Assembly: GCA_944326585.1 (NCBI GenBank)
Contig: CALVEN010000001.1
Span: 1 to 64,000, forward strand
From: Candidatus Gastranaerophilales bacterium
Lineage (GTDB): Bacteria; Cyanobacteriota; Vampirovibrionia; Gastranaerophilales; Gastranaerophilaceae
Direction: 5' to 3'
DNA length: 64,000 nt
Made by a program: the position numbers and the translations under genes. The stretch's first letter is position 1. Each line of letters opens with the position of its first letter. Of the stretch, positions 58,092 to 61,892 are shown in pieces. A model generated the notes under the pieces. It had not been told where the DNA came from, ran no database searches, and saw only the letters and a list, made by a program, of their open reading frames with translations.

Positions 58092-59213
58092 TTATCTAAT
58101 CTGTACCGGCATTATCAAACATACGAAATCTTCTTCGCTGTTCGGTTTTAATACTGTTGCTGATAATCCTGTGTTTAATCCTATTTTTACTTCTTCACAA
58201 TCAATATTTTTCAATGCTTCAAGTACATATTTATAATTAAATGCTATAAGCAAGGGTTCAGATGTGTATTGAATATCGATTATTTCTTCTGATTTACCTG
58301 AATCCGGTGTATCTGCGTTCAAAGTTAATTCATTATCCGCAAAGTTCATTTTTACAATGCTTGTTTTTTCATTAACCATAATTGATACACGCTCAAGTGC
58401 GGATATTAGTTGTGAAACATTTACGACAGCTTCTTTCGGACTTTCAGACGGTATTAATTGATTGTATTTAGGGAATTGACCGTCAAGAAGTCTTGAAATT
58501 GTCATTGTTCTTTCTGATTTTATTATTAATTTTGTTTTTTCCGTATAAATTCTGACGCTTTCTTCGTCAATGTAGGCACTCATTTTTATGAATTCATTAA
58601 GTGTTTTTGCAGGGATAATAAGCTGTTTATTTTTATTGTCTTTATTGTCAATATGTTCTCTGACACGTGCAAGTCTGTTTCCGTCCGTTGAGGCAATTTC
58701 AAGAACCTGACCTGAAATATCACAGACAATTCCCGATAAAAGATTGCTTGTTTCATAACCGGCTGCAGCAAAACCTGCCTGTCTTACGGCTTTTGAAAAC
58801 GGTTTTAATTCAATTTCAAAGCTTTCTTCGTCATTCAAATCAACCGTATAAACTTCCGGCGGAAATTCGTTTGCCGAAATACCTATTATATCGAATTTTG
58901 AATTTTGGCATGTAATATTAACACTTGTGTCGCCTTCCGGCATTTCAAAGGTTATTAATTTGTTACCCAATTTTGATACAATTTCATTCAATGTTTTGGA
59001 AGGGAGAGTTATTCTGCCGTTTTCTTCAACCTGAGCATCAACCAATGCGGTTACAGTCAAATCCAAATCTGTTGCAACAAGTCTTATGGTACCTTTATCA
59101 ACAGTTTCTATTAATATATTCATAAATACTGGCTGCAAAGCTTTCATGCTGGTTGCACGCTCTACTATTTTTATCCCGTCAAATAAATCCTCTTTTTTTA
59201 CGACAAATTTCAT
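58092..59213 (-). CDS. dnaN: DNA polymerase III beta sliding clamp
   Basis: 373 residues, the family length. KFVVKKEDLFDGIKIVERATS, ATDLDLTVTALVDAQV and the C-terminal ending CLIMPVQIR are typical, and three clamp domains fill the length. It encircles DNA and tethers the polymerase; QLSLF-type peptides such as the C-terminus of the EndoQ-UvrD fusion bind it. AAAGGAG lies before ATG. The region upstream holds the probable origin. Confidence 0.97.
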   Translation of the reverse strand: MKFVVKKEDLFDGIKIVERATSMKALQPVFMNILIETVDKGTIRLVATDLDLTVTALVDAQVEENGRITLPSKTLNEIVSKLGNKLITFEMPEGDTSVNITCQNSKFDIIGISANEFPPEVYTVDLNDEESFEIELKPFSKAVRQAGFAAAGYETSNLLSGIVCDISGQVLEIASTDGNRLARVREHIDNKDNKNKQLIIPAKTLNEFIKMSAYIDEESVRIYTEKTKLIIKSERTMTISRLLDGQFPKYNQLIPSESPKEAVVNVSQLISALERVSIMVNEKTSIVKMNFADNELTLNADTPDSGKSEEIIDIQYTSEPLLIAFNYKYVLEALKNIDCEEVKIGLNTGLSATVLKPNSEEDFVCLIMPVQIR

Positions 59214-59634
59214 ATCCTGCTCCTTTTTCCTTTAAGAATTATTTTATAATAAAAAATATTCCAAAACAAATGTATGTAAAGAAGTTTAAAAAACTATAGT
59301 TCGGGTTTTCGTTTTTTTGTTCAAAACTTTATTTATTAAATATTATATTAAAATAATAAATTATAAATATAATCATAATAATAAGCCTTAAATATTTGTA
59401 GAAAAGAGTCTGAAAGTATTATTATTATTGATTTTTAATAGTAGAAAGATTTGTAGAAAAAATAATAACAAAAATAATAAAATTGTAGAAAACAAAAACA
59501 AAACAAAACAAATGTAGAAAACTCATGAGTTTTCTACCGCATTTAACATGTTTTTCTACAGCAATACACCAAAAGGATGATTTTTTTAAGTTTTATTTAA
59601 AAATATCCGTTATTATTACAAAAGGAGTTATTTT
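59214..59634. other. Probable chromosomal origin oriC
   Basis: A 421-bp, very AT-rich gap next to dnaN. Exact TTTTCTACA boxes occur at 59397-59405, 59452-59460, 59484-59492 and 59513-59521 (minus strand) and 59552-59560 (plus strand); near matches are at 59439-59447 and 59530-59538. The boxes at 59513 and 59530 form a 24-bp palindrome with half GTAGAAAACTCA. The motif differs by one base from TTTTCCACA, the DnaA box of Cyanobacteria and Bacillus. The AT-rich stretch 59330-59396 may be the unwinding element. In Synechococcus elongatus oriC also lies beside dnaN. Confidence 0.75.
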
Positions 59635-61392: not shown

Positions 61393-61892
61393 TTAATAAC
61401 CCTCATAATTTTATTAACGACTTCATCAGGCGTTTTGTCACAGGTGTCAACGGTGAATTGAGCCTTTTCGTAATTTCCGGCGCGTTTTTTTAATATAAAA
61501 GCAATAGAATCAACAGAAAAATTTTTATGCAGAAGAGGTCTGTGGATTTCGGATTTTATACGCTGAAAAATACATCCGGGAGTTGCTTTTAAATAAATAA
61601 CAATACCGTATTTTTTAAGAATTTTTCTTGTTTCTTCATCCTCAAAAGCCCCTCCGCCAAGCGCCATAACCAAATTTTTATGACTTGTAAATTCAAAAAT
61701 TTTTAACTTTTCTATTTTTCTGAAATACTGTTCTCCGAATTCGTTAAAAATATTTGTGACAGTCATGTTTTCGGATTTTTCAAGTTCTTTATCAATATCA
61801 ATAAAATCATATCCGATTTTTTTTGCCAAAAGCTCACCTGCGGTAGTTTTTCCGCACCCCATCATTCCCGTTAAAACAATTAAACTCTTCAT
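61389..61892 (-). CDS. aroK: Shikimate kinase
   Basis: 167 residues. The P-loop is GMMGCGKTTAG near residues 8-18, shikimate is bound by the FIDIDKELE Asp and ALGGGAF, and the LID Arg is in EIHRPLL. It makes shikimate 3-phosphate. On the minus strand TAAAAT ends 6 nt before ATG without Shine-Dalgarno. Divergent to der, whose promoter has the same geometry. Confidence 0.96.
   Translation of the reverse strand: MKSLIVLTGMMGCGKTTAGELLAKKIGYDFIDIDKELEKSENMTVTNIFNEFGEQYFRKIEKLKIFEFTSHKNLVMALGGGAFEDEETRKILKKYGIVIYLKATPGCIFQRIKSEIHRPLLHKNFSVDSIAFILKKRAGNYEKAQFTVDTCDKTPDEVVNKIMRVIK

Follow-up and report, generated by a model that had tools for sequence, protein, structure and literature searches.

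The closest described counterparts of this locus are the cyanobacterial origins of Synechococcus, Anabaena and Cyanothece, which belong to the same phylum, likewise lie beside dnaN and carry TTTTCCACA boxes (PMC4674748). They share with our window (the whole stretch of DNA that was analyzed, 64,000 nucleotides) a cluster of 9-mers with a TTTT start and an ACA end, but differ at box position 6, which is C and accompanied by Asp433 of DnaA in the cyanobacteria and T, accompanied by Lys, in the window. Origin unwinding in B. subtilis and H. pylori relies on the same layout of terminal box, short spacer, trios and AT-rich DNA (PMC8235120), although the box sequence is different there and the window trios are mostly TTA, with an imperfect fourth repeat. 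Lineage-specific DnaA boxes have precedents in the Epsilonproteobacteria, at position 5, and in Thermotoga. The epsilonproteobacterial change is also lineage-wide and also attributed to the start of helix 5, but it placed a T at position 5 and left Asp433 in place (PMC5043019), whereas the change in the window affects position 6; the Thermotoga maritima box ACCTACCAC (PMC10316083) has a consensus unrelated to that of the window. No paper containing TTTTCTACA or TTTTGAACA as a word was found in the open-access literature searched, and a search by title and abstract for Melainabacteria combined with replication origins returned nothing relevant.

The DNA originates from a gut-type member of the Gastranaerophilales, which belong to the non-photosynthetic class of Cyanobacteriota. 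The gap under study, at 59214–59634, is 421 bp long and is bounded exactly by the start of dnaN (59213, minus strand) and by the next ORF (59635). The locus is composed of the following features.

58092–59213, minus strand: dnaN, DNA polymerase III beta clamp (Pfam PF00712, PF02767, PF02768)
59214–59634, no strand: predicted oriC, the intergenic gap between dnaN and a 121-aa ORF, with the box cluster, an AT-rich stretch and a skew minimum 2.4 kb off, kept beside dnaN in relatives
59318–59326, minus strand: putative alternative box TTTTGAACA, across the unwinding element from the cluster, kept in 12 of 16 genus members by alignment count
59328–59369, no strand: probable DNA unwinding element, AT-rich (8% GC, 60-bp windows over 59310–59399)
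59370–59384, minus strand: predicted DnaA-trio TTA TTA TTA TGA TTA, with an imperfect fourth repeat, separated from the outermost box by 12 nt
59397–59405, minus strand: predicted DnaA box TTTTCTACA, closest to the unwinding region, exact, the same in each of the 16 genus members
59440–59448, minus strand: weak predicted DnaA box CTTTCTACT, two mismatches, TTTTCTAC at this place in several genus members
59452–59460, minus strand: predicted DnaA box TTTTCTACA, exact match
59484–59492, minus strand: predicted DnaA box TTTTCTACA, exact match, less conserved within the genus
59513–59521, minus strand: predicted DnaA box TTTTCTACA, exact match, forming the left palindrome half, unchanged across the 16 genus members
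59514–59537, no strand: perfect 24-bp palindrome (12+12 nt; inverted repeat I18) of two opposed boxes with their tails facing
59530–59538, plus strand: predicted DnaA box TTTTCTACC, right half of the palindrome, one mismatch, TTTTCTAC without variation across the 16 genus members
59552–59560, plus strand: predicted DnaA box TTTTCTACA, exact match

Five exact copies of TTTTCTACA fall within 164 bp, in both orientations, out of 42 in the entire genome (1,703,243 bp, 16 contigs), and hence form a dense cluster. Dinucleotide shuffling of the gap (n = 20,000) yielded at most two copies against the five observed, and, with up to one mismatch allowed, the 250-bp stretch richest in boxes on the 439-kb contig lies here, with six boxes against at most three elsewhere; no second cluster of comparable density was found in the rest of the genome. 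The preliminary description of this DNA had noted five exact and two near copies together with a 24-bp palindrome, and both observations were reproduced, the near copies being those at 59530–59538 (one mismatch) and 59440–59448 (two mismatches) and the palindrome a perfect 12+12 nt at 59514–59537. The TTTTGAACA copy at 59318–59326 and the trio at 59370–59384 were not part of that description. Both palindrome halves and the outermost box are invariant among the 16 members of the genus. Position 6 is T (or A) in every box of the gap in place of the canonical C: no TTWTCCACA, and no canonical TTWTNCACA of any kind, was found in the 421 bp, and the 54 copies of TTWTCCACA in the genome are unclustered. 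The start of the feature next to oriC is kept in 15 of the 16 genus members.

GC skew was calculated on the 438,929-bp contig, reassembled from 20-kb pieces, which is one of 16 contigs of a chromosome not assembled as a whole. The cumulative curve reaches its minimum at 61,890, 2.4 kb from the box cluster, and then climbs to 412,838, and the skew flips sign across the cluster, from −0.062 over the 59 kb to its left to +0.060 over the 59 kb to its right. The dnaA gene, identified by reading its ORF, adjoins ruvA on contig C3, far from oriC and dnaN; its surroundings are devoid of a box cluster, and an origin at dnaA was rejected on these grounds. Within the class, families f8 and f13 have dnaA and dnaN side by side, unlike this genome. 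The gap has the densest cluster of box-like 9-mers in the genome, an AT-rich element, dnaN next to it and the skew minimum of the contig 2.4 kb away and, judged by these sequence features, it is the chromosomal oriC. The earlier proposal of an oriC beside dnaN is borne out by the cluster, its uniqueness, the skew minimum of the contig, the trio and the 8%-GC stretch; its two expectations, a skew minimum at oriC (checked on the 439-kb contig) and the absence of a rival cluster at dnaA, agree with what was found.

Read along the minus strand, a spacer of 12 nt leads from the outermost box (59405–59397) to the trio (59384–59370). Four of its five repeats fit [C/T]T[A/T], at the same spacing as in relatives, and the strict trio pattern is broken in the window because the fourth repeat is TGA. 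Of the 34 relatives in which CT boxes precede dnaN (boxes are designated here by their bases at positions 5–6), 27 display the strict box–spacer–trio arrangement, compared with 0.48 expected from shuffled flanks; the distance between box and trio in these 27, with four strict trios, is nearly constant and mostly 12–15 nt. Families f2–f4 carry the textbook trio CTACTACTACTA, and TAATAATAA of the trio is invariant among the 16 genus members.

The search for boxes in relatives was confined to TTWTNNACA, and most of the genomes are metagenome-assembled. Clusters of TTTTCTACA upstream of dnaN were detected in 16 of 16 genus members, in most sampled genera of the family, in most families of the order, including f2–f4 and f7, and also in the class families f8, f10 and f13; in f8, the CT boxes lie in loci where dnaA and dnaN are neighbors. 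In G020, G027, G033, G034, G055 and family f9, TTTTCTACA is replaced by TTTTGAACA. At least one TTTTGAACA occurs in 28 of the 52 CT-dominated class genomes, a figure to be read against a background density of about 1 per 16 kb. In G034 and G033, TTTTGAACA is over-represented across the genome (209 and 223 copies, whereas the reversed word occurs 48 and 73 times), which sets the two apart from the other GA-box genomes. The outgroups carry TTWTCCACA at the same place beside dnaN. The box shift at one position, as first described, therefore stands, whereas its restriction to this lineage does not, as the shift is class-wide and includes the Gastranaerophilales and other Melainabacteria. The origin in the window also carries one TTTTGAACA besides the CT boxes.

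Given the TTWTNNACA limit, more divergent boxes would be missed, as in f11, f12 and some f1 genera: no recognizable TTWTNNACA cluster was found beside dnaN in f11 and f12, where residue 433 is G or T, or in these f1 genera. When k-mers were searched de novo for candidate boxes, f11, f12, f14 and the genera g2 and g8 yielded nothing convincing. The recognition helix of f11/f12 DnaA (L170–L179, L187, L188) reads DGRGNS or SNRTHSS. In family f15 (L184–L186, Arg433), TTGACAG occurs eight times in three loci upstream of dnaN, with 0.38 expected; it could possibly be a box bearing G at position 6 or no more than a set of −35 promoter elements, and since the −35 hexamer of promoters reads TTGACA too, we do not claim it as a box.

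The bases of the box are contacted by DnaA residues 399, 423, 432–435 and 438–439, of which 432–435 and 438–439 belong to helix 5 (PMC5043019). The 3' half of the box is recognized by the helix that starts at 433–434 (PMC5742627), and D433, a residue strongly conserved in every class of bacteria, contacts box position 7 together with L438 (PMC8235120). Domain IV was compared in an alignment with the sequences of 1J1V (E. coli) and 8BTG (B. subtilis), with numbering counted from the start of the 1J1V chain, residue 374. The DnaA of this genome has Lys at E. coli position 433 in place of the canonical Asp and retains Arg399, His434 and Thr435. Asp433 is present in all 28 proteins of the phylum outgroup (Cyanobacteriia and sister classes) and in none of the 116 class proteins, which have K (94), T (9), R (6), G (4), Q (2) or N (1). 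Position 433 alone tells the class from the phylum outgroup without any overlap, two further columns being insertion artefacts. Inspection of the domain IV residues, to which the preliminary description had pointed, thus revealed K for D at 433, with box position 6 covarying across two phyla; a shift in DnaA specificity in this lineage, the inference made at the outset, is supported indirectly.

The second phylum entered when 84,980 species genomes were scanned for DnaA proteins by the motif FGGRKHTT alone, whose matches outside Melainabacteria fell mainly into one Clostridia clade (Saccharofermentans / Ruminococcaceae) with Lys433. In 36 loci of Lys433 Clostridia, the 600 bp downstream of dnaA (20.9 kb altogether) contain 84 copies of TTWTGAACA versus 1.2 expected, as computed from the rest of the same loci, and no TTWTCCACA; these boxes sit in the gap between dnaA and dnaN. 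In the order around one Lys433 Clostridia genome, which was sampled, Asp433 relatives use mainly CC, and single Clostridia genomes with Ser433 and Thr433 have GA boxes. An Asn433 clade of Clostridia (K/R-NHAT; L378–L381, L384, L387, L391, L392, L394–L396, L415, L416) has TTWTTAACA or TTWTCAACA around dnaA, with CC boxes instead in L396.

The association was tallied as the commonest box of each informative genome, grouped by residue 433. With Asp433, the phylum outgroup has CC in 13 of 13 genomes and the Clostridia have CC in 10 and TC in 1 of 16. With Lys433, CT is commonest in 61 and GA in 6 of 73 class genomes and GA in 29 of 33 Clostridia, and C at position 6 (NC) is commonest in none of either group; 12 of 14 Clostridia with Asn433 have TA or CA. 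Across all informative genomes, C at position 6 accompanies Asp433 in 24 and is lacking in 2, and among genomes with another residue it is found in 4 and lacking in 118. The exceptions are one Asn433 and three His433 genomes with CC and two Asp433 genomes whose commonest box is not NC. Hence C at position 6 goes with Asp433, and without Asp433 the base is usually A or T. Since the genomes are related, a Fisher value of 2e-21 cannot be read as a fair probability. On the DnaA domain III tree, residue 433 (Asp or not) changes four times, two of them forced by well-supported branches; the association rests on three to four changes, too few for a phylogenetic test, and an independent-pairs test is too small for significance. 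With only three to four independent switches, residue 433 is a likely, not a proven, cause of the box switch.

The explanation that best accounts for the whole, to which we assign a probability of roughly 0.85, is that the gap would be an oriC with a cluster of predicted DnaA boxes of the TTTTCTACA consensus, opened by a DnaA filament, and that the boxes would have switched through the loss of Asp433. DnaA is predicted to bind the five to seven boxes, with consensus TTTTCTACA rather than TTWTNCACA, on both sides of the head-to-head palindrome pair. From the outermost box (59397–59405), a filament would grow over the 12-nt spacer onto the DnaA-trios and, once it had reached them, the AT-rich stretch would open towards dnaN. 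The C-to-T change at box position 6 probably stems from the loss of Asp433, the residue with which the recognition helix begins and in whose place Lys now stands, and G5-A6, as in TTTTGAACA, may be a second solution for Lys433. Without the Asp carboxylate, the acceptor paired with the canonical C6-A7 step would be gone, and Lys would be a donor; both C5-T6 and G5-A6 give an A:T pair at position 6, and thymine O4 on either strand could accept a hydrogen bond from Lys. This contact logic for position 6 is indirect, since the reported D433 contact is at position 7 (PMC8235120). We consider it fairly probable that residue 433 acts as a general specificity switch for box base 6, in which Asp would specify C and Lys, Ser, Thr or Asn would specify A or T, that origin and initiator changed in concert on two or more occasions (once at the base of the class and at least once in Clostridia), and that TTWTCTACA and TTWTGAACA are two Lys solutions. 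In E. coli, mutations close to where the recognition helix begins reportedly alter binding specificity (Blaesing 2000).

The origin and its shifted boxes could be real and yet caused by another change in domain IV (for example L422F, V437, Q408H or the one-residue shorter turn that makes FGGRKH into FNKKH), with residue 433 as a passenger. E. coli columns 400, 422, 437 and 441 also differ strongly between the class and the outgroup, and the genus of the window additionally has P423E and the shortened turn, but f2–f4 and f8 use the same CT box and share neither P423E nor the shortened turn, and in Clostridia, where the protein background is another, the boxes change along with residue 433 (to K, S, T or N), so we regard another causal residue as unlikely. 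The shortened turn in particular was rejected as the cause, as order-mates with a full turn share the box and M. tuberculosis DnaA combines a short turn with Asp (FGRDHTT).

Two further explanations dispense with a change in DnaA specificity or with DnaA itself. The C-to-T change might be drift towards A+T under unchanged or merely relaxed specificity, as could be expected in a gap of about 20% GC within a genome of about 35% GC; however, the f8 loci, with 37–53% GC (median 48%), use CT too, and AT drift was rejected on this basis. Moreover, Asp433 genomes down to 40–41% GC keep CC, the GA solution keeps G at position 5, and TTWTCCACA is absent rather than mixed in, which makes drift very improbable. 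The least credence is given to the boxes being operators through which a transcription factor regulates dnaN, with the origin merely nearby. Their position directly upstream of dnaN and the perfect palindrome would suit operators, but the GC skew switches at the cluster, the spacing from box to trio is fixed, the boxes run in both orientations over 164 bp with no other cluster in the genome, and Lys433 Clostridia have their matching boxes in the dnaA–dnaN gap. In addition, the outgroup carries TTWTCCACA, the experimentally bound cyanobacterial DnaA box, at the same place beside dnaN (PMC4674748).

The DnaA box and the DnaA surface that contacts it are among the most conserved protein–DNA pairs in bacteria. 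A class that lacks Asp433 and has a matching box, repeated in a second phylum, would illustrate how the recognition site of an essential initiator can shift, and the pairing with residue 433 offers a single-residue test of the DnaA code. Origin finders keyed to TTWTNCACA will mis-score these genomes, and the CT, GA and TA/CA consensus sequences may mend origin finding in uncultured gut and environmental lineages.
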